Source: Pseudoflavonifractor sp.
GTDB lineage: Bacteria > Bacteroidota > Bacteroidia > Bacteroidales > Muribaculaceae
DNA: 64,000 bases
NCBI GenBank assembly: GCA_023667145.1
Contig: JAMPAQ010000002.1
Span: 102,574-166,573 of the forward strand
Reading direction: 5' to 3'
In this document: piece after piece, positions 24,073 through 38,392 of the stretch
Position numbering within the stretch: position 1 is the first letter of the stretch
Layout: every line of letters starts with the position of its first letter
Translations under genes and position numbers: made by a program
Notes under the pieces: model-generated
Told to the model about the DNA's origin: nothing
Databases searched by the model: none
Seen by the model: the letters and a program-made list of their open reading frames with translations, nothing else

Positions 24073-25983
24073 ATGAGAAAATTTAATCTTTTTGTCTTTA
24101 CCCTGATGACCCTGCTGTCGGGGCTGACAGCCAAGGCTGCCGCCGTATTTGACGGTGAGGGTTATCCGATAGTCTTCCTACGCGGAGGAGTCACAGGCTG
24201 GGAGGCCAAAAATGACTACAAGTTCACCCGCAACGGAGATGTCTACACACTCCACCTCGACGCGCTCGACGGTGAGTTTAAGTTTGGTGACAGCCAATGG
24301 AGCAACTTTGACTACGGGGCAGCCTCCACTGTCGATGGTGAGAATGTGATATCCAAATCCACGACAGTTTCAGCCCGACATGCCGGGAAAAACTTTTCAG
24401 CCTCCAACCTCACCGATGTAACCATAAGTTTTCAGGTCAATGATGGCGGCGACACCACCATCAAGCCCATCACCTTTATCATCGGAGGTGTCGAGCCGAC
24501 TGTCAACGGACTGTCGGGAACACTCCCCGTCCTCTACATCAACGTCTACAACGAGGAAGATAAACTCACCCTCAACAACGAGATAATCGACAAGGACCTC
24601 GACCACAAAAACTACTTCAGCTTTGCCGAATATTGGCTCGACCTCAACGGATGTGAGTGGTTGGAGGCCGAGGGTGCCAAGTCGATAGGATCCAAGGAGG
24701 AGCCGCTGCCCCTTGAGATAAAGGCCCGTGGCAACTACACCCGCACAGGCTTTTCCAAAAAGCCGTTCAAGCTCAAGCTCGGCAAGAAGCAGAACCTGCT
24801 CAACCTCACACCCGAGAAAAGCAAGCACTACGCGATACTGGCCCACGCCGACGACAACAAGGGCTACCTGCGCAACTTCGTTGGCTTTAACCTCGGCCAC
24901 CGCATCGGTCTGCCCTGGACACCGTCACAGCAGCCCATCGAGGTTGTCATCAACGGTGACTACCGTGGCCTTTACTTCCTGACCGAGTCGATACGCGTAG
25001 GCGATGGACGCGTGCCTGTCGAGGAGCTCGACGACAATGTCAGCGACCCCGCGCTCATCTCGGGCGGATACATCGTGGAACTCGACAACTACAATGGCGA
25101 CAATCAGATACGCTTTCAGGAGAAACCTTACAGCAACGGCGACCCGACTGTGCGTGTGACATTTGACACCCCTGAGGAATATTCCGACTTCCAGTACCGC
25201 TTCATCAGCGAGCAGTTCAACAAGATCAACGACCTCATCGGTGCCAACAGCGACGAGCTGTGGAGCTATCTCGACCTCGACGATGCCGTGCGCTACTACC
25301 TTGTCGAGGAGATTATCAGCCACACCGAGTCATACCATGGCTCGACCTACCTGTTCCGCGACCGTGGCGAGGGACAGAAGTGGCACTTCTCTCCGCTCTG
25401 GGACTGCGGCAACGCGTTCAACGGACCCACAAACGACCATTTCTACAACCACGCCATGTTTGGCACCACTTGGATACACACAATGGTGCGCAACGGAAAG
25501 TTCTACGACAAGGCCCGCGAGACTTGGCAATGGTTCATGAGCAACGAGTATGACGGCCTGATAGATGACATTGACACATACGTGTCCCACATCACCGCAG
25601 CCGCCAAGTCCGACCGCAAGCGTTGGAAAGGACAGGCGACCCCGTCACCCACCGGCAACAACAGCCCCACTCAGGTGGTCGACAATACCGACATGCAGTC
25701 ACGCCGCAACGATGTGGTCAACCACCTCAACGCCAAGATCGACTGGCTCAAGAGCGTGTTTGGCGACTACTCCGGCGCTCTCGTGGCCGAACCTCTGCGC
25801 GACAACACAGTGGCAGCACCCCTGCCCTCCTACGTTGTCACCGGCATTGAGGACATCGAGGCCGACGACTACACCGGCGCTGAGTTCTACAACCTGCAAG
25901 GCATCAAGGTCGAGAATCCCTCAGCAGGAAACGTCTACATCATGCACAACGGCGACAAGGCACGCAAGGTGCTCGTGAAATAA
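24073..25983 (+). CDS. Secreted CotH-kinase family protein with SusE-like amino domain
   Basis: A 636-residue secreted protein. The signal peptide is residues 1-23. Residues about 25-100 look like a SusE/F-type carbohydrate-binding fold (YPIVFLRGGVTGWEAKNDYK; FKFGDSQWSNFDYG). The CotH domain, about 150-560, has RGNYTRTGFSKKPFKLKLGK, HADDNKGYLRNFVGF, GYIVELDNYNGD and the metal-binding FSPLWDCGNAFNGPTN. CotH proteins are atypical surface protein kinases in spores, but their role in Bacteroidota is unknown. The last 30 residues (FYNLQGIKVENP then VYIMHNGDKARKVLVK) resemble a carboxy-terminal sorting tail of type IX secreted proteins. Confidence 0.82.
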   Translation: MRKFNLFVFTLMTLLSGLTAKAAAVFDGEGYPIVFLRGGVTGWEAKNDYKFTRNGDVYTLHLDALDGEFKFGDSQWSNFDYGAASTVDGENVISKSTTVSARHAGKNFSASNLTDVTISFQVNDGGDTTIKPITFIIGGVEPTVNGLSGTLPVLYINVYNEEDKLTLNNEIIDKDLDHKNYFSFAEYWLDLNGCEWLEAEGAKSIGSKEEPLPLEIKARGNYTRTGFSKKPFKLKLGKKQNLLNLTPEKSKHYAILAHADDNKGYLRNFVGFNLGHRIGLPWTPSQQPIEVVINGDYRGLYFLTESIRVGDGRVPVEELDDNVSDPALISGGYIVELDNYNGDNQIRFQEKPYSNGDPTVRVTFDTPEEYSDFQYRFISEQFNKINDLIGANSDELWSYLDLDDAVRYYLVEEIISHTESYHGSTYLFRDRGEGQKWHFSPLWDCGNAFNGPTNDHFYNHAMFGTTWIHTMVRNGKFYDKARETWQWFMSNEYDGLIDDIDTYVSHITAAAKSDRKRWKGQATPSPTGNNSPTQVVDNTDMQSRRNDVVNHLNAKIDWLKSVFGDYSGALVAEPLRDNTVAAPLPSYVVTGIEDIEADDYTGAEFYNLQGIKVENPSAGNVYIMHNGDKARKVLVK

Positions 25984-29090: not shown

Positions 29091-29126
29091 CGGTGGGCGA
29101 TTTCTCAAAAAGAGAGTCGCCCACCG
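29091..29126. terminator. Shared hairpin between convergent radC and PCMD operon
   Basis: CGGTGGGCGA with TTCTC pairs with GAGA and TCGCCCACCG around an A5 loop. T tracts are weak on both sides. Placed between convergent transcripts, it can serve either. Confidence 0.6.
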
Positions 29127-29173
29127 CATTATCCGTATCGCCGTCCCATCAACGGCACATGCCTGTTGTCGGG

Positions 29174-30745
29174 TCAGTAGTCATATTCCAGGACGAGGTC
29201 GTCAATCCAGAGTATCGAGCCGTTACCGCCCGTGAAGTAGTCGCCATACTTGCTTGCCGAGGCGACCACGAGGATGTAGCTCGGCACGCGGTTGGTGTCG
29301 CGGTAGTCGAGCGTTATCTCAAACTTGCGGTACTCGCCGATAGTCTCGCCATACAGCACGGTGCCGTATGCTATCACCGACGGGTCATCGGGATTGAAAA
29401 GCTGACGGTTCTTGGGATTGGTGCGTATCTCCAACGGCTCCCTCCAGTCGGCGAGCGCTATGTAGATTTGTGCCGTGTCGGGACGGCCTTTCAGATAGGA
29501 CATCTCGGACGACGCATTGCTTATGGGCACACATGTGTACTTGGCATAGCCCGTGAGACGGGTCGGACGCTGGGTGAACGGACGACCGAAGCTGAGGATA
29601 CCGTTGGTGCCGTCGGTCTTGACATAGACACCCGAGAAGATATTTCCGGCGGCAATCTTGCCGAGCATACCTATGCCGACAAAACGGGTCTCAAGTTTGG
29701 CCGCGAGTCCCTTGCCACTGCTCGTGTCGTCGGTGGGCACGGAGTTGCTGTCTCCGAGTGTCGTCGCACCCTTGTTGCCGGTTCCCCAGAATGGAGTGCC
29801 ACCCTCTGACCACGGACACCATATTTTGCCGTCGAGCCACCACTGGTCGAGCGCTCCGTCGGGAAGTTCGGTCTCGCTGCCGGTGGTAAACTCCTCCTCG
29901 ACACCAAAGTCGCTGTCGGAGTATGCCCTCACGACATAACGCGTGTCGGGTCGCAGGTGGATTATACGTGCCATAAAGCTGCCTCCCGAGGTGGTGATCC
30001 ACTCATCGGGGACATCAATCCATGTCTCCGACGACTCCTCGCGGTACTCAAATCCATTGTTCTTTCCCTCCTCAGCCGTACCATATATCCACGCCACGTT
30101 GGTCCACGCATCGACACGGTCGGTGGTCACCGAACTCTCGGTCTGGGCCATGTAGATGGTCCATGTCTCCTTGCGGTCATAGGTAGATACCTCCACCTCC
30201 ACTGGGCTGGAGAAATCGACCGTCTTCCCCTCAAGGTCGGGGGTCATTGTCGAGCCTGTGGGTCCGAGCTTGATTGAGGTCACCTTGACCGCCGACAACG
30301 ATGCCTCCATGGGCACGTAGGCCACCACGCGGCGTGCCGGGACATCAATCTCGGCAGCACCCACCTGAGCCGCCACGGTAAAGTAACGATCGACGGGCTG
30401 CTCGGCGGTGACGGTCCAATGATAGTCGGTGGTATACATCGTCAGCGTGACATCAAGCGGCTCCTCAAGGTCGATTCCGTCGGTAAGGTCCGTTCCGTTG
30501 ACATACGCCCCGTCGGTCAGCGTGAACTCGGTTATGTCCACATTTTTGATATCTACCTCCTCGCCGAGGTAGAGAGTCACTGTCGATGTCGAGGCATCGA
30601 TGAGCGCACTCTTGGTCTGCCCCTCGGCTGCTATGGTGAGAAACTCGGCCTGCGTGCGCGGATAGGGTATATCATTCTTGATACACCCCGACAGCAGCAT
30701 GACGGAGACAGGAGCGAGGAGACTGGCTACAGAGGTAATCTTCAT
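29174..30745 (-). CDS. PCMD-domain surface lipoprotein
   Basis: A 523-residue lipoprotein, last gene of the six-gene minus-strand operon. The signal peptide ends in the lipobox MLLSGC, with the Cys at about 21. The amino part has short beta domains like those preceding PCMD elsewhere. The carboxy half, from about residue 300, is the 'putative carbohydrate metabolism domain' PCMD: LDQWWLDGKIWCPW, TPFWGTGNKGATTLGD, FSGVYVKTDGTNGILSFGRP and the end YFTGGNGSILWIDDLVLEYD. This half closely follows the end of the 32329-34467 product. PCMD has no proven activity. It starts 11 bases after its upstream neighbour. Confidence 0.8.
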   Translation of the reverse strand: MKITSVASLLAPVSVMLLSGCIKNDIPYPRTQAEFLTIAAEGQTKSALIDASTSTVTLYLGEEVDIKNVDITEFTLTDGAYVNGTDLTDGIDLEEPLDVTLTMYTTDYHWTVTAEQPVDRYFTVAAQVGAAEIDVPARRVVAYVPMEASLSAVKVTSIKLGPTGSTMTPDLEGKTVDFSSPVEVEVSTYDRKETWTIYMAQTESSVTTDRVDAWTNVAWIYGTAEEGKNNGFEYREESSETWIDVPDEWITTSGGSFMARIIHLRPDTRYVVRAYSDSDFGVEEEFTTGSETELPDGALDQWWLDGKIWCPWSEGGTPFWGTGNKGATTLGDSNSVPTDDTSSGKGLAAKLETRFVGIGMLGKIAAGNIFSGVYVKTDGTNGILSFGRPFTQRPTRLTGYAKYTCVPISNASSEMSYLKGRPDTAQIYIALADWREPLEIRTNPKNRQLFNPDDPSVIAYGTVLYGETIGEYRKFEITLDYRDTNRVPSYILVVASASKYGDYFTGGNGSILWIDDLVLEYDY

Positions 30746-30756
30746 AACGACAGGGT

Positions 30757-31590
30757 TTATATATGAACACCTATACCGAAGTTGATGTTGAACAGATTTA
30801 TTTTGAAATTAGCGCCCGACGAAAACCGCGTACCTTCCTCGACATCGTTGGTACGCTGCTTCTCATTCTTGAAATAGAGGCCAAACACGCCAAACGACAC
30901 GTTGAAGCTGACATAGTCCATGATAAACACCGTCAAGCCCGGGCTGAAACTGAGACGGCCCTCGACCGAGTTGGTGCGAGTGTCGCGCAGCTCCTCGTTG
31001 TAGTAGCGCTTGAAGCGCTGCGATCCACTGCCAAACTCGAGGTCAACCTCGTTGAATATGCCGAAACGCTTCGCTGTGCCGAGTCCGATATAGTTGCGGT
31101 AGAATATCGAGGCGGCGTATGTCTGCGAATAGTAGCTGATATCGCCGATGGTGAAGCTCATATCCTCGTCGATGTCAAGCGACAGCTTGCCAAGGTCGGC
31201 AATGCCACGCGTGTAGTTGAGCTTCATGCCTATCGACTGGTTGTTGCGCACAAAATAGGCTACCGAGGGCTTGATGGAGTACATCTTGCCCTTGAAGTTG
31301 AAGTCCTTGAGCAACGACAGTATCTGAACGTCATCGGCATTGAACTCCCCGTATGAGGCGGTCAGGGCAAACGCCCACTGCCCCTTGGGGATGAATAGGT
31401 AGTTGAACAGTCCACGGTCATAGCGGCCAAAGTTGCGCTCAGGCAATATGATGCTCACCGTGTCGCTACCCACAATCACCTTCTCGTCGTTGGGGTCGTA
31501 GGGCGCTGTCTCGGTGACGATAATCTCTTGTCCCGCCACATGCGCGGGCATCATCGCCACGGCAATTATGAGATATAAGATATACTTCAT
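30757..31590 (-). CDS. Small outer membrane beta-barrel protein, copy B
   Basis: A 277-residue exported protein. The signal peptide is residues 1-20. The mature protein alternates hydrophobic and polar residues throughout, as in an outer membrane barrel of roughly ten strands, and ends in INFGIGVHI. It is a diverged sister of the next gene upstream: both have PKGQW, RNYI.LG..KRFG.FNEV, SPGLTVF/APGMIVF and ANFKINLF. An extra amino-terminal segment (EIIVTETAPYDPNDEKVIVG) is unique to this copy. The gap to the copy A stop is 5 bases. No known family name is assigned. Confidence 0.7.
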   Translation of the reverse strand: MKYILYLIIAVAMMPAHVAGQEIIVTETAPYDPNDEKVIVGSDTVSIILPERNFGRYDRGLFNYLFIPKGQWAFALTASYGEFNADDVQILSLLKDFNFKGKMYSIKPSVAYFVRNNQSIGMKLNYTRGIADLGKLSLDIDEDMSFTIGDISYYSQTYAASIFYRNYIGLGTAKRFGIFNEVDLEFGSGSQRFKRYYNEELRDTRTNSVEGRLSFSPGLTVFIMDYVSFNVSFGVFGLYFKNEKQRTNDVEEGTRFSSGANFKINLFNINFGIGVHI

Positions 31591-31595
31591 GACTC

Positions 31596-32336
31596 CTACA
31601 GATAAAATGCCACGCCAAAGGTGATTGAGAACAAATTGATCTTGAAGTTGGCCGAGCGCGAGTTGCGGTCGGCGATGAACACCTGGTCGGTGATCGACTT
31701 GGTGTGGGTATAGCTGAATCCGAGCACCCCGACATTAACCTCCAGGGCCGAGTAATTGTTGAGAAAGACTATCATGCCCGGGGCAAGCCCGATGTCGAGC
31801 TTGTAGTTCTTCTCGTAAGTACCTGTCAGGTCATCGCCGCTGCCGTTGATCAGCTTTGACTGGCCACCGCCCATCTCCACCTGCACCTCGTTGAACAGGC
31901 CGAAGCGCTTGCTGCTGCCGAGGCTGATGTAGTTGCGGAATATCGCCATGCCGTAGTAGTTGTGGGCGATATTGTACAAGTGGTCGAGCTTGTAGTCGGT
32001 CTCCGAGTCGATGACCACGCGGCCCTTCTCAATCTTGTTGAGCGAGCGCGAATAACCGAACTTTCCTCCCACGCCGAGATTGTCCTTGAAGATGTAGCAC
32101 ACCATCGGGCTCACCTTAAACGTGTAGTTGTCGCCCGACAGCCCCTCGACTATCAGGAACTGATAGTTGTCCATGCTCGACTGGGAATAGCTGACACTCA
32201 GTCCCGCCACCCATTGGCCCTTCGGGACAAACGATGTCATTTCAAGGCCGCGCTTAAAAGGCTCTTGCCCATAGGCACCCGAGGCACCCATGAGCAAGAA
32301 CAATAGCGGGATAAAAAGTCTTGGTATCCTATTCAT
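31596..32336 (-). CDS. Small outer membrane beta-barrel protein, copy A
   Basis: A 246-residue exported barrel-like protein. The signal peptide is residues 1-23 (cut after AYGQ). Shared signatures with copy B are FVPKGQWVAGLSVSYS, FRNYISLGSSKRFGLFNEVQ and SANFKINLFSITFGVAFYL. Its start codon overlaps the stop of the DUF4493-PCMD gene by 8 bases, indicating translational coupling. Tandem duplication followed by divergence is the simplest origin. It could anchor or export the lipoproteins of this operon, which is inference from gene order only. Confidence 0.7.
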   Translation of the reverse strand: MNRIPRLFIPLLFLLMGASGAYGQEPFKRGLEMTSFVPKGQWVAGLSVSYSQSSMDNYQFLIVEGLSGDNYTFKVSPMVCYIFKDNLGVGGKFGYSRSLNKIEKGRVVIDSETDYKLDHLYNIAHNYYGMAIFRNYISLGSSKRFGLFNEVQVEMGGGQSKLINGSGDDLTGTYEKNYKLDIGLAPGMIVFLNNYSALEVNVGVLGFSYTHTKSITDQVFIADRNSRSANFKINLFSITFGVAFYL

Positions 32337-34467
32337 AAACCAACTGGAGGTCGTCTACAAACAACTCGCTTGAGTCACATCCGACGAAGTAGTCGCCGAA
32401 GTAGCTTGCCGAACATACTATCAATATGTTGGAAGCCTTGACATCCTCGCGGACATACTCGATGGGAATCGTAAACTCAATCATATCGTCACCCGGAGTA
32501 TTCTCATCCCAGGTAATCTCACCAAATCCGATGACACGCGAGTCGTTGCGGTCAAAGAGACGCTGTTCCTTGGGGTTGGTCTTGATGATAAACGGCCACT
32601 TTTGTCCGTTCCATTCCTCCATCTGGTCATCGAGGATGGCAATATAGATGACACCTATATCATTTGACTCCTTGAGCGTCACCCCGGCATTGGCTGGCAG
32701 GTCGGCCTGCTTGCCTCGGTTGATGACACCGGTCTTGTACTTGACATAGCCCTTGAGCGCCGTGGGTCGTGATGAGAACGGACGACCGAACCCAAGGATA
32801 CCATTGGTACCGTCGGTCTTGAGGTATTTGCCTGTAAAGGCGTTTCCGGCGGCAAACTTCATCACCACATACTTTGACATGAGGTCAGCGCCATAGTTGC
32901 CTGAGTGCTTGACAGTCTCGGACGGAACAGTGATGTTCCAGCTGGCACCGAGGGTCGTCGAGCCGTGGTTACCGCTGTCCCAGAACATGTCGCCGCCGGG
33001 AGCATAGAGCAGATAAGCAGTTGTCGATGTATTCCAGTCCTCAAATCCGCCGTTGGGCACCTGGGCCTCGGCCTCAGTGGTGAAGGTCTTTACCTCGGCT
33101 GAGGTGAAGTCATCGCCCGTGGCGACATACTCGTAGACAGTCCCACCGTCAAGATTGGTGAGCGTGGCCGAGAATGAGTCGCCCGAGAGGGTCGCGGCGG
33201 CGTGTGACCATGTGGAGGCACCCTGCTTGCGGTAGTCAAACCCTACGTTGGCCACACCCTCCTTGAGCACCTTGCCGGTGAGGGTGGCGTGCTTTGCCCA
33301 GACAGCTGCCGGAGCGACAGCATTGGCCGACACGGCGGGAGTGATGGTCGACAGGATGAAGGTCGCCGTGCGCTGCTTGGCGAAGTTATCGACAGCCTTT
33401 ACCTCAAACTGGTATGTATCGCCGCCGAGCGAGTTGGTAAACGTCTCCTCAAAGTTAATCTTGAGGTTGGAGACATCGCGGGTGCCGTCGTATGTGTAGA
33501 TGGCATTGATACCCTTGGCATCAAGAGCGTCGCGGGTGGCATCGTCCATAGCCATCAGGTCAACACCTCCGGCGGGGAGTCCGGCCTTGTCGCAGGTGAG
33601 TGTGACACTCTGGAGAGCCGTGGCGGCGGTCACATAGAGCGACTGACGACCCACGAGACCGGCCTCGCAGTAGAGCGGCTCGGCGATGTCAAACCCTACA
33701 CCGGCAATCTCGGGCGCGGCTGTGATCACTATCTCGTCCTCGACATCGACAGCCGATTCGTCAACGGTTACTGTCAGCAGACCGCCACCGGCCTCGCCGA
33801 TGGGGGTGCTGTTGTATATCACATCGAGTTTGTACTCAGTTGCACGCTTGACGTTCTCAATGACACCGGTCTTGGTGTACTCGCTGCCGTCAATCTTGTG
33901 ACCCGACACAGTCCATGTCAGCGAGGTCACGCCGTTGGGCATCATGAAATAGCCCTTGCGCTCATCGCGACCCTCAAACACGAGTTCACCCTTGGTGTGG
34001 GCCACGGTCATGGTGTAGTCCTTGAGTACCTCATCGACACTCGACCCATAGTTGACCGAGGTCACGACATTGGCGATCTTGCACTTGAGGTTGACGGTCG
34101 TCGCGCTGCCGCCGTTGACGGTGAAAGGCTGATAGCCCTTGAAATAGCGCTTGTCAAACGACGCGGGCACCGAGTCGCCCGTCCATGCCTCGGCCACATA
34201 GTTTCCGGCGACGAGCCATATCTCGGAGGGGACGTTGGAGATGCCCTCATACTTTCTAACAAGACCCTTCTCGCTTGAGATCCAGATGGTACAGCCATCG
34301 GCAAGCTCCTGTGCGGTAGCCGCACGCGAGAAGACCTTGACATTGGAGTTGACGACGGTGTGGAGCGAAACCCGGCCCTCGCCGCCCATCGCCTCGTCCC
34401 GCTCGCTGCACGCCGTAACTCCGGCGGCGAGCAGGGAGGCCATGAAATATATTGATATCTTTTTCAT
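32329..34467 (-). CDS. DUF4493 plus PCMD surface lipoprotein
   Basis: A 712-residue lipoprotein. The signal peptide ends in GVTAC (Cys 20). The DUF4493 domain, about 30-220, has GEGRVSLHTVVNS, VPSEIWLVAGNYVAEAW and TVNLKCKIANVVTSVNY. A central region of Ig-like strands follows. A PCMD-like carboxy domain starts at about 480 with VPNGGFEDWNTST, then MFWDSGNHGSTTLG and KYLKTDGTNGILGFGRPF, and ends VDDLQLVYE. The gene thus carries in one chain the domain of its two upstream neighbours and that of the last gene. It lies 5 bases after the upstream gene. Confidence 0.82.
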   Translation of the reverse strand: MKKISIYFMASLLAAGVTACSERDEAMGGEGRVSLHTVVNSNVKVFSRAATAQELADGCTIWISSEKGLVRKYEGISNVPSEIWLVAGNYVAEAWTGDSVPASFDKRYFKGYQPFTVNGGSATTVNLKCKIANVVTSVNYGSSVDEVLKDYTMTVAHTKGELVFEGRDERKGYFMMPNGVTSLTWTVSGHKIDGSEYTKTGVIENVKRATEYKLDVIYNSTPIGEAGGGLLTVTVDESAVDVEDEIVITAAPEIAGVGFDIAEPLYCEAGLVGRQSLYVTAATALQSVTLTCDKAGLPAGGVDLMAMDDATRDALDAKGINAIYTYDGTRDVSNLKINFEETFTNSLGGDTYQFEVKAVDNFAKQRTATFILSTITPAVSANAVAPAAVWAKHATLTGKVLKEGVANVGFDYRKQGASTWSHAAATLSGDSFSATLTNLDGGTVYEYVATGDDFTSAEVKTFTTEAEAQVPNGGFEDWNTSTTAYLLYAPGGDMFWDSGNHGSTTLGASWNITVPSETVKHSGNYGADLMSKYVVMKFAAGNAFTGKYLKTDGTNGILGFGRPFSSRPTALKGYVKYKTGVINRGKQADLPANAGVTLKESNDIGVIYIAILDDQMEEWNGQKWPFIIKTNPKEQRLFDRNDSRVIGFGEITWDENTPGDDMIEFTIPIEYVREDVKASNILIVCSASYFGDYFVGCDSSELFVDDLQLVYE

Positions 34468-34472
34468 CTTAC

Positions 34473-35771
34473 TTATTGAGCTACAAGGATAAGAGTTTCT
34501 TTCTTGACTGTTCCATCGTTATCGACAATCTCAAGGGTGAAGCTGTGAGAGCCGGGGAACACGAGCATACCGAAGAACCGCGTGATGTCAAACGTCAGGT
34601 CGACCGCATCAATCACCTCCTCGTTGACCGGGAAGTCGAGGTCGTCACGCAGATTCTCAAGATTCTCGGCAGGGGCGTATGCGAGGTCAAACGTCGTCGG
34701 GAGCAGGTCAGACACAGCGGCCATGAAGTCCTCGCTCGTCGAGGCTATCGTCACGTTGAAGTGGGCGATACCCTTGTCAGCGTGTATGAAGACCTTACCG
34801 TCGCTGAGAGCTGCGACATCATTGGTAGCCGGAGAGAATACCATCTCAGCTGCGGTAATGGTAATCGTATTGGTGGGTGTCGGAGGAGTGGGATCATCGG
34901 GGCCGGGACCCGGGGTCGGGTCGTCACCCTCTATGGGGCGCTCGCCATCTATGACATCCTCATCGACAATCACGTTGCCATCCTTGTCAACAACGGTCAC
35001 CTCGGTGTCGAGCACGAGACCCTCTCCGATGACAATGCCGCCGGTAGCATCGGGCACGGTGCCGTTGCCGTTCTTGAGCTTGAACGTGATGATGCGGTGC
35101 TGACCGGCCTGAATGTCGGTGTAAGCCTTGCGTAGTGTCACGCGGTTGCCGTCAATTGAGCCGGCAAAAGAGGCCACGAGCGTGTGGCTGTCCTCGATAA
35201 ACTTAAAATATCCCGAGCGGTTCTCGCCATAGTTGTAGACGAGCTGACCGCCATCATTCATCAACACAGTCACCTGAGCGTCGGTTCCGAGATGCTCCAT
35301 CAGCTGGTCGCTGTAGCGTATCGACACCTTCACGTTGGCGAGCTTGCACACCACGGTGCCTATCTCAGTGATGCCACCGTTGGTGATGGAGAACTTCTCA
35401 GAACTGCCCTCGTAGTAGGGGGTCTCCCATGCCTGAAGTTCCTGATTGTGTGATATGACCTTTACAAGATAGTCGCCCACAGGGAGGGTGATGATCTCGG
35501 GCATCTCGCCATAAAGCCACTCCTTGACGAGAGTGTTGTCGGTGGCATCAAGCACCTTGACGGTAAAGGCATCCACATCGACGCCCGAGCGTGACTTGAT
35601 GTCCTTGTCGCCGACAGTGGTCTCTGCGGTAGAGAGCTCCACTCCGGCGAGTGAGAGCTGACCCTCACCCTCGCTGTCGGTCAAGGAGTCCCAATAGTTG
35701 TCCTTGGAACATGAGCTTACGAGCACCACTGCCGCAAGCACCATCATTATATTATATATCTTTTTCATCAT
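34473..35771 (-). CDS. DUF4493-domain surface lipoprotein
   Basis: A 432-residue lipoprotein with lipobox VSSC (Cys about 21). DUF4493 occupies about 35-250: GEGQLSLAGVELS, FTVKVLDATDN, MPEIITLPVGDYLVKVIS, TPYYEGSSEKFSI and VVCKLANVKVSIRYSD. A Pro/Asp/Gly linker at about 285-305 (DDPTPGPGPDDPTPPTP) leads to a second beta-rich domain of about 130 residues. The gap to the preceding gene is 17 bases. Function is unknown. The acidic, Pro-rich linker suggests an exposed, extended surface protein. Confidence 0.8.
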   Translation of the reverse strand: MMKKIYNIMMVLAAVVLVSSCSKDNYWDSLTDSEGEGQLSLAGVELSTAETTVGDKDIKSRSGVDVDAFTVKVLDATDNTLVKEWLYGEMPEIITLPVGDYLVKVISHNQELQAWETPYYEGSSEKFSITNGGITEIGTVVCKLANVKVSIRYSDQLMEHLGTDAQVTVLMNDGGQLVYNYGENRSGYFKFIEDSHTLVASFAGSIDGNRVTLRKAYTDIQAGQHRIITFKLKNGNGTVPDATGGIVIGEGLVLDTEVTVVDKDGNVIVDEDVIDGERPIEGDDPTPGPGPDDPTPPTPTNTITITAAEMVFSPATNDVAALSDGKVFIHADKGIAHFNVTIASTSEDFMAAVSDLLPTTFDLAYAPAENLENLRDDLDFPVNEEVIDAVDLTFDITRFFGMLVFPGSHSFTLEIVDNDGTVKKETLILVAQ

Positions 35772-35788
35772 CTTTGGTGTTACCGGGA

Positions 35789-38392
35789 TTAATAGACAAA
35801 TGAGAGGTTATCGACAGTGAGCATGGCACCGCGTGAGCTGCTCTCATATCGGCTGATGTAATCGGTGGTCACTATCGCCGAGGCCTCCGCACTCATGTCG
35901 TAGGAAGCCTTGTCAGACGATGTGATCATTATGCGCAGGGCTGTAGCCTTAACAAATGTCTTGCTGTAGGTGATGGGTACTGTAAACTGTGTATAACCCG
36001 AGGCCGCGCCCAGCTTGACACTGCCCTGCCCTATCACGGTCGAGCCGTTGAGGAGCGTCACGGTCACCATACCTTTTTCTGAAGTGTTCTGCGGGTCGTT
36101 GACATACTGGTAGTATCCTGTTAGCGACGCGGGGCGCGAAGCAAAGCTGATGCCCTCGTTATAAGTTTCCTTGCCATTGGAATAGGTGTATGAGCCAAGG
36201 AACAGCTTACCGGCAGAGCGGTTGGCCATATAGGGATTGGGCTTGTTCTCGCTGTAATAGTATTCACTGGTACGCGACTTGGCATGTTTTGCAGGGGTTG
36301 TGCCGTTCTCATCCCATGCCACGTTTCTCACTACCATAGCGTTGCCACCATGCTGAGCCTTCAGGTTCTTATAGACATCCGGAGTCTCTGTACCTCCACC
36401 GGTGTTCACTATACGCAGGCCGGGTACAGTACCCTGCCATGTCAGTGTGGTGTTATAGGTCGAGGGAATGACAAACCATGACATCTGGTTGGCCGCCGAC
36501 AGGTTGCAAGTCTTGGCATTTACGCTTGCCCAGCCGGTAGGTTCGTTGACTTGGAATGACAATGTGCTTTGGTAATACGGATTACCGATAGTCGGTGACC
36601 ACTGACCGCCCTGATTCATCTTGGAGGCCGCAAACTGGGCACCGCCAAGGTCCTCGAAGTCGCCGTTGGGGACAGCCAAGGTGGCCTCGGTCGTAAACTG
36701 CATCGGAGCGGTCTGCTGTCCGTCGGGGAGTGTGACAGTCATGTTGTAGGAGGTGGCGGGAGTGAGACCCGTGAGGGTAATAAGGCCGTTGACAGCGTCG
36801 CGGTGATCGGCCTCCTTGGTCACGCCGTCAAACTTGACAACACCATAGTTGACTACATACGCGATATTTTCAGCCGACGTGCCCGACACCTTGACGAGCG
36901 CCTTGTTGGCGTAAGCGTCTACTTCTATATCGTAGGCAAGCTGCTCGTGGGCAACGACTGCCTCTGCGCCATCTTTGGGCTTACCGCAGTAGAGGGCGCG
37001 GACGTTGACATCGCCCTGGGCGGGTACGGCTATCACGACATTATATCCGGGCGTGCGGGCTGCATCGTTGACCGAGATTATGCGGGCGGTCGACCATGTT
37101 GCCCCGTTGTCGGTCGAGGTCTCGAACGACACCTTGTCGTTGAAGTCGTCACCATCATAGACAACCGTGAGGTCCATCTCGGTAGCGCCATACTCAAGCG
37201 ACTCAGGGGCTGTCACCGTGAGGGTGACGGGGGTAACTGTCACGCCGAGTGACACCGGCTCATTGACCTTGGTCATCTGGTCCTTGACCACGAGGGTGAA
37301 TGTCGCGTCGCCGGCACCGAGTGACGCTATAGCGCCGGTGAGGTCGACAACGGCGAAGCGCTCGGGCTGACGCCACAGACCCGATGCTTTGAGGCCGAGC
37401 GACGTCATCGTTGACTTCTGCATCTCGGTAGCACGCATGAGGTCAATCTCAGCGGGCCATCCCTTGGCTATCAGCGACTCTGACTGGGTCGTGAGTGTCA
37501 CCGAGCCGAGTCCGCCGGGAGAGTTGATCATGTAGCGCACGGCCTGGGAGGGGGTCTCACCCTCGACAACCGTCATCGGCTGACCGACGGTAAATCCCTC
37601 GGCGGTGACCGTTGGGGCGGGAGCATTCATCAGCTCGTCGCTGAGGTTGATGGTGACGGTCTCCTGTTCGAGAGCGTCGTCAAACTCCACGTTGAGCACC
37701 GCGTCTCCCACACCGCCCTGATCCTTGTTGACATCGAGGGTGATGCGGTAGTGATGACGGGCAAGCGCCTCGTCGATATTAGCGGGCTGGATGGTAGCAT
37801 GAGTACCGTTGGGCTTGGTGATGTCGAGCGACAGGGTCACCTTGCCGGGGCGCAGGTAGGCCGGGCGGGTCTCGTCGGAGGCGTAGGTGATATACGTGCC
37901 GCCCTCGGAGTGCAACTCGGCGCTGTAGGCGCTGAAATAACTCTTGAATGCCTCGGTATAGGCTATTGACACCATGGTGTTGGCAAGCGAGGCCGTGAGC
38001 GACACCTCGGTGGTGCGTCCTTCGTTGACCGAGAATGTCGAGCTGCCATAGTAGTACGGCTTCTCAAAACCCTCGTCATTGAGGCTACCCATTGATGCCT
38101 CAAGGGTGTACTTGCCAATCTTGAACGCTTCGTCGGTCGGGAACTGCGCTACCGACGGCCATGTCTTGTAGTAGGATCCGTTTTCGGACTTCAGCGACAG
38201 TCTGAGATCATCGACCGTGGGCGAAGTGGCCGAGCGGCCTGTCGACACTGTCGTGATGACATCGGAGTTGAGCTCGATCAACGGGGTGATGCGGCCTGCT
38301 CCTGCGGTCATCGGCGACTCCTCAGACGCGCAGGCCCCCATCATCAGGGCCGACGCAACGACCAAGGAATAGCCAAACGTCGTTTTTTTCAT
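35789..38392 (-). CDS. Large DUF4493-like surface lipoprotein, first gene of the operon
   Basis: An 867-residue lipoprotein. The lipobox MMGAC places Cys at 20. The DUF4493-like domain, about 30-250, has GAGRITPLIELNS, IGKYTLEASMGS, KPYYYGSSTFSV and SLANTMVSIAY. Several Ig/FN3-like modules follow, then a carboxy-terminal domain starting at about 600 with VPNGDFEDLGG, the same entry motif as in the 712-residue protein. It ends SSRGAMLTVDNLSFVY. It is first in the transcript; only a weak -7-like TATCTTTA (38484-38491, minus) lies upstream. Confidence 0.78.
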   Translation of the reverse strand: MKKTTFGYSLVVASALMMGACASEESPMTAGAGRITPLIELNSDVITTVSTGRSATSPTVDDLRLSLKSENGSYYKTWPSVAQFPTDEAFKIGKYTLEASMGSLNDEGFEKPYYYGSSTFSVNEGRTTEVSLTASLANTMVSIAYTEAFKSYFSAYSAELHSEGGTYITYASDETRPAYLRPGKVTLSLDITKPNGTHATIQPANIDEALARHHYRITLDVNKDQGGVGDAVLNVEFDDALEQETVTINLSDELMNAPAPTVTAEGFTVGQPMTVVEGETPSQAVRYMINSPGGLGSVTLTTQSESLIAKGWPAEIDLMRATEMQKSTMTSLGLKASGLWRQPERFAVVDLTGAIASLGAGDATFTLVVKDQMTKVNEPVSLGVTVTPVTLTVTAPESLEYGATEMDLTVVYDGDDFNDKVSFETSTDNGATWSTARIISVNDAARTPGYNVVIAVPAQGDVNVRALYCGKPKDGAEAVVAHEQLAYDIEVDAYANKALVKVSGTSAENIAYVVNYGVVKFDGVTKEADHRDAVNGLITLTGLTPATSYNMTVTLPDGQQTAPMQFTTEATLAVPNGDFEDLGGAQFAASKMNQGGQWSPTIGNPYYQSTLSFQVNEPTGWASVNAKTCNLSAANQMSWFVIPSTYNTTLTWQGTVPGLRIVNTGGGTETPDVYKNLKAQHGGNAMVVRNVAWDENGTTPAKHAKSRTSEYYYSENKPNPYMANRSAGKLFLGSYTYSNGKETYNEGISFASRPASLTGYYQYVNDPQNTSEKGMVTVTLLNGSTVIGQGSVKLGAASGYTQFTVPITYSKTFVKATALRIMITSSDKASYDMSAEASAIVTTDYISRYESSSRGAMLTVDNLSFVY

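Follow-up and report, generated by a model that had tools for sequence, protein, structure and literature searches.

A six-gene Bacteroidales operon of DUF4493 and PCMD lipoproteins with paired outer-membrane barrels: a candidate type V pilus-like system

Six minus-strand open reading frames, forming one operon in the ORF list of the window (the whole stretch of 64,000 nucleotides that was analysed), are proposed to encode a type V pilus-like fibre or a short tip-fibre adhesin; PCMD domains would serve as its heads, and two barrels with a PCMD lipoprotein as its base in the outer membrane. This reading, to which a probability of roughly 0.55 is given, is drawn from computed features, namely gene order, conservation, co-occurrence, the kinship of DUF4493 in fold and profile, the loop position of a basic site, the loss of that site in lone DUF4493 genes and an eight-stranded barrel. 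In the proposed mechanism, the products of genes A, B and C would be exported as lipoproteins and displayed at the surface, where an Arg/Lys protease would cut the loop that is predicted to follow the first strand of each DUF4493 domain and that holds a conserved Arg (occasionally Lys). Strand 1 would thereby be released, and the groove left open would take up a strand of the next subunit, so that A, B and C are linked as a fibre. The C-terminal PCMD jelly-rolls of A and C would most likely be the ligand-binding heads, the ligand probably being a glycan, and the two OmpA-type barrels together with the uncleaved 523-aa PCMD lipoprotein would form an outer-membrane base holding or organising the fibre.

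Operon layout and conservation

An earlier sequence-only reading had described six minus-strand genes separated by gaps of 17, 5, -8, 5 and 11 bases from gene A to the PCMD gene, and these gaps, the protein sizes and the strand all match the ORF coordinates (Table 1), the negative value being an 8-base overlap of the gene C and barrel A ORFs. The lipoboxes it assigned to the four large proteins were found, with the Cys at positions 21, 21, 20 and 21, as were its motifs VPNGDFED/VPNGGFED, KTDGTNGIL and RNYI.LG..KRFG.FNEV in the translations. Upstream, the six-gene set is bordered by a divergent SDR gene, and the strong hairpin at its other end is likely a terminator common to the operon and the convergent radC. 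No SusC/SusD, glycosidase or regulator was found among the operon proteins and their nine nearest neighbours, and the absence of a SusC/SusD pair from this set agrees with the earlier statement that the locus differs from a standard polysaccharide utilisation locus. A CotH-kinase-like protein (636 aa) is encoded a few genes off the operon, at 24073-25983.

Table 1. Parts of the operon, with coordinates as positions within the window
Feature	Position	Strand	Description
Gene A	35789..38392	-	867 aa; lipoprotein; place in order kept in relatives
Gene B	34473..35771	-	432 aa; lipoprotein; DUF4493 and C-terminal Ig-like domain
Gene C	32329..34467	-	712 aa; lipoprotein; DUF4493, Ig-like, FN3-like and C-terminal PCMD jelly-roll
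Barrel A	31596..32336	-	246 aa; signal peptide and OmpA-size outer-membrane barrel
Barrel B	30757..31590	-	277 aa; sister of barrel A; predicted 8-stranded OmpA/OprF-type barrel, residues 65-277
PCMD lipoprotein	29174..30745	-	523 aa; N-terminal domains, FN3-like, C-terminal PCMD
Strong hairpin (GCGGTGGGCGA...TCGCCCACCGC)	29092..29136	.	operon end / convergent radC; z -7.0

A scan of a genome collection with the 523-aa protein as query returned 463 relatives, and the best 80 loci were analysed; nearly all of these belong to Bacteroidales, the few under other names probably being MAG mislabels. Barrel A, barrel B and the PCMD protein were all present in 77 of the best 80 loci, nearly always adjacent and in that order. 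Linked A, B and C genes accompanied them in 11 loci, including the Barnesiella isolates An22 and An55, in which the 8-base overlap of gene C and barrel A is identical to that of the window. One DUF4493 gene was linked in 13 loci, and 40, with enough upstream sequence to judge, had none. The same six-gene order, looked for in other Bacteroidales, recurs in about 15 other genomes, Barnesiella included. It is complete in the window, in loci L011, L036, L042, L044 and L050, in the Barnesiella loci and in other families, where the order includes additional small DUF4493 genes and only one barrel. At one further locus (L049, 6250-9150), a 966-aa gene sits between barrel B and the PCMD gene.

Within Muribaculaceae the operon is usually split into an A-B-C unit and a barrel A-barrel B-PCMD unit. 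When 38 genomes with a lone trio were searched, at least three DUF4493 genes were found elsewhere in 34, one in two and none in two. All of the DUF4493 sets fetched from such places (20/20) run A-B-C on one strand, encoding proteins of about 800-890 aa (A), 416-529 aa (B) and 712-771 aa (C). Since the units co-occur even when split, they appear to form a two-unit system, fused in some lineages, apart in others and rarely alone. Across 295 Bacteroidales genomes, 25 held both barrel and DUF4493, four the barrel only, nine DUF4493 only and 257 neither (Fisher 9e-25, a value that ignores kinship). The DUF4493-only genomes held single genes in the places fetched, and the four genomes with a barrel and no DUF4493 suggest that the trio may have a function independent of DUF4493. 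FtsH and phosphofructokinase genes directly upstream of lone trios were rejected as further members because they are housekeeping genes.

When the PCMD proteins are placed on a tree, linked loci fall in several families that branch early, and split loci belong mostly to a single large clade of Muribaculaceae; as the tree was midpoint-rooted, the direction of change between the two states is not proven by it. The conserved order and the co-occurrence of the units even when split bear out the earlier proposal of one co-evolving system. Scattering of the genes in relatives, named beforehand as evidence against that proposal, was seen in part, in that the set often splits in two, but the same two ordered units result, and they are still found in one genome.

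DUF4493 and the pilin-like basic site

Genes A, B and C each matched the Pfam family DUF4493 (E 1e-45 to 1e-48), and gene C and the 523-aa gene matched PCMD. In gene A, the fimbrillin-like DUF4493 (residues 39-251) is followed by an Ig/FN3-like middle and, at the C-terminus, by a weak PCMD match that had been overlooked (residues 691-838; E 2e-6). The structural relatives of the 523-aa PCMD protein are 4jrl, 3s30, 3hbz and 4het, and solved PCMD relatives bear the label "putative glycoside hydrolases". One further PCMD protein (414 aa frame) is found elsewhere in the window's genome (G000:C11:381148-381897). A literature search for DUF4493 or PCMD under these names returned no papers.

The top whole-length matches of the predicted gene B model were type V pilins, aligned across both domains with Z 8-9.2 over 190-200 residues (4h40, 3up6, 3sy6, Mfa3 5nf4, Mfa2 5nfi and FimA 4q98, Bacteroides adhesins among them), and the DUF4493 model has the two-domain, transthyretin-like beta-sandwich fold. 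Its pLDDT was 69 overall and mostly 75-90 in the DUF4493 domain, and a Z of about 9 against the pilins is only moderately above background. As the structure model was of medium confidence, a second test was made from sequence alone, in which 108 DUF4493 sequences were compared by hhalign with Mfa_like_1 and Mfa2 profiles built from other genomes. DUF4493 matched Mfa_like_1 with E 9.3e-6 over 230 columns and Mfa2 with E 1.3e-4, compared with E 0.065-0.21 for control profiles (barrels, PCMD) and E 0.15 for the two accepted pilin families, Mfa_like_1 and Mfa2, against each other. From model and profiles together, DUF4493 is probably a relative of the type V pilins (fimbrillins), and it may already be classed with pilins in other resources. 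In a direct Pfam scan of genes A, B and C, no accepted fimbrillin family was matched, DUF4493 being the sole pilin-related match. NCBIfam matches of gene B to fimbrial families were set aside because they cover the signal peptide only.

If DUF4493 is a pilin relative, a function would be gained for a family with no known role, in dominant gut bacteria (Muribaculaceae, Barnesiella). The window's own genome holds one C11 (clostripain) protease gene and no Mfa_like_1 or Mfa2 proteins; among the families searched, the operon would be its only fimbrillin-like system. The reverse pattern was seen in another genome of the window's family (G025), which has neither barrel nor DUF4493 and carries seven Mfa_like_1 and four Mfa2 proteins, possibly by replacement of one pilus type with another.

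Type V pilins are cleaved by an Arg/Lys protease at a basic residue of the loop that follows strand 1, upon which strand 1 leaves; the cleavage-site Arg is R49 in Mfa1, R43 in Mfa3 and R54 in Mfa4, and the anchor Mfa2 is without it (PMC5789003; PMC8313007). By analogy, candidate cleavage sites in the operon are R53 of gene A (STGR/SAT), R61 of gene B (KSR/SGV) and R48 of gene C (FSR/AAT), the slash marking the putative cut. In the gene B model, strand 1 spans residues 36-48 and strand 2 residues 70-75, with R61 in an unstructured loop (49-63) between them. The loop motif [STVILNF][RK][AST] was present in 78/105 DUF4493 sequences, compared with 28 +/- 4 in shuffles, and four control stretches were at shuffle level or moderately off. 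In the unlinked sets, R[ASTG] was found in 16/18 A, 17/19 B and 18/19 C genes. Canonical pilins from other genomes have the same pattern (TKA/TRA), which Mfa2-type ones are without. The Arg is missing from some sets (B and C of L011; C of L088 and L120). Gene C of L011 (6813-8363) furthermore has no PCMD, its end being formed instead by the Ig-like domain known from gene B.

The site was absent from every lone DUF4493 gene beside barrels (R[ASTG] in 0/11) and present in 30/34 A genes of A-B-C sets, a comparison in which a few rows are near-copies and for which Fisher values ignore kinship; the lone state has several origins on the tree, but fewer than 11. Nine of 12 genomes with a lone barrel-side DUF4493 have no other, and the remaining three carry a complete A-B-C set at another place. 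In these three (G735, G736 and G738; loci L037, L052 and L056), a fourth DUF4493 without the basic site adjoins the barrels, and given the full set elsewhere, it may be a fourth, anchor-like paralogue, for which it is a candidate. Such anchor-like DUF4493 genes without the Arg lie beside barrels in other genomes and not in the window.

The paired barrels

Barrels A and B are sisters by profile comparison (E 1.7e-44, 32% identity). The barrel B model (residues 65-277) is a closed barrel with eight transmembrane strands, in keeping with the barrel of about 170 residues of the OmpA type, and is nearest to OprF/OmpA (Z 13-14); a likeness to the amyloid exporter FapF was dropped (TM 0.2). PF13505 was matched weakly in barrel relatives, the window's own barrels had no direct Pfam/NCBIfam match, and a PDB sequence search with the barrel profiles gave none. 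Outside Bacteroidales, only weak matches were found and were taken as unrelated generic barrels. The R, G, R, F and E of RNYI..KRFG are invariant across 42-46 genomes; the motif marks the barrel family and is therefore, alone, no proof of a tie to the lipoproteins. Near its N-terminus, barrel B carries a conserved extension (residues 36-61; VIVGSDTVSIILP..RNFGRYDRGL) that barrel A is without. The extension looks strand-like and could be a contact element pairing with a lipoprotein. An anchoring or structural role is possible for the barrels.

Rival readings and comparison with known systems

The sequence-only reading had favoured a surface complex for glycan or host-ligand binding. A surface adhesive or binding assembly still appears probable, but the apparent kinship of DUF4493 with pilins and the conserved basic site shift the likely mechanism to a pilus-like fibre with carbohydrate-binding-like heads. 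It is rather unlikely that the complex is static, with DUF4493, Ig and FN3 domains as spacers, PCMD binding glycan, the barrels as passive anchors and neither cleavage nor polymerisation. The presence of PCMD on three of six proteins and the hydrolase label of its solved relatives would suit such a complex, and polymerisation does not follow from the fold by itself, as uncleaved anchors like Mfa2 demonstrate (PMC5789003); however, the basic site in the loop greatly exceeds its frequency in shuffles and goes missing just in those DUF4493 genes to which B and C are not linked, and neither SusC/SusD nor a glycosidase lies among the nine nearest neighbours.

It seems distinctly improbable that two separate systems are mere neighbours, one a fimbrillin-like A-B-C unit and the other a barrel-barrel-PCMD unit that acts independently in some general envelope function. 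The trio standing alone in at least 40 loci, the four of 295 Bacteroidales genomes with barrels and no DUF4493, and the nine with DUF4493 (single genes in the places fetched) and no barrels could all be explained in this way. Against it are the co-occurrence of unlinked units in 34/38 genomes, the linked arrangement in several families towards the base of the tree and the gene C/barrel A overlap kept in Barnesiella. A further option enlarges on the export pores of the earlier reading and has the two barrels exporting or assembling the lipoproteins; it draws on the tight linkage and on type V pili having no known helper in the outer membrane for their assembly (PMC5789003). It is very improbable, because closed 8-stranded OmpA/OprF-type barrels would offer no channel for folded or unfolded protein, and lone trios occur without adjacent DUF4493 substrates.

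Within the preferred reading of a pilus-like or tip-fibre adhesin, a long fibre is unsupported: no subunit resembles a classic shaft pilin or ends in an obvious long tail of the kind that shaft pilins have at the C-terminus (none is apparent in B). We tentatively suggest, at somewhat less than even odds, that DUF4493 operons are a separate type V pilus lineage with its own outer-membrane base, the OmpA-type barrel pair and the PCMD lipoprotein. To our knowledge, no described type V pilus has dedicated membrane parts such as two barrels. How a type V pilus is held and assembled at the outer membrane, with no usher known, would be made testable by these three proteins.

Among known systems, PCMD-domain proteins (PF13201; 4jrl, 3s30, 3hbz, 4het) resemble the C-terminal domain of gene C and the 523-aa protein and, weakly, of gene A, but the PCMD of the operon is joined to fimbrillin-like domains and linked to barrels, and a catalytic role is without evidence. 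The likeness to OmpA/OprF/OmpX-type 8-stranded barrels is that of the predicted barrel B fold; unlike those proteins, the operon barrels have no peptidoglycan-binding C-terminal domain, are paired sisters and, in barrel B, carry the conserved N-terminal extension. With type V pili (FimA-E, Mfa1-5), the operon shares lipoprotein precursors, the two-domain fimbrillin fold predicted for DUF4493, a loop following strand 1 that holds a basic residue (about residue 48-61 in the operon) and several subunits per operon with no chaperone or usher. It differs from them in that DUF4493 is a separate sequence family, that its subunits carry PCMD heads, and that it has no recognisable long-tailed shaft pilin and adds two OmpA-type barrels and a PCMD lipoprotein.
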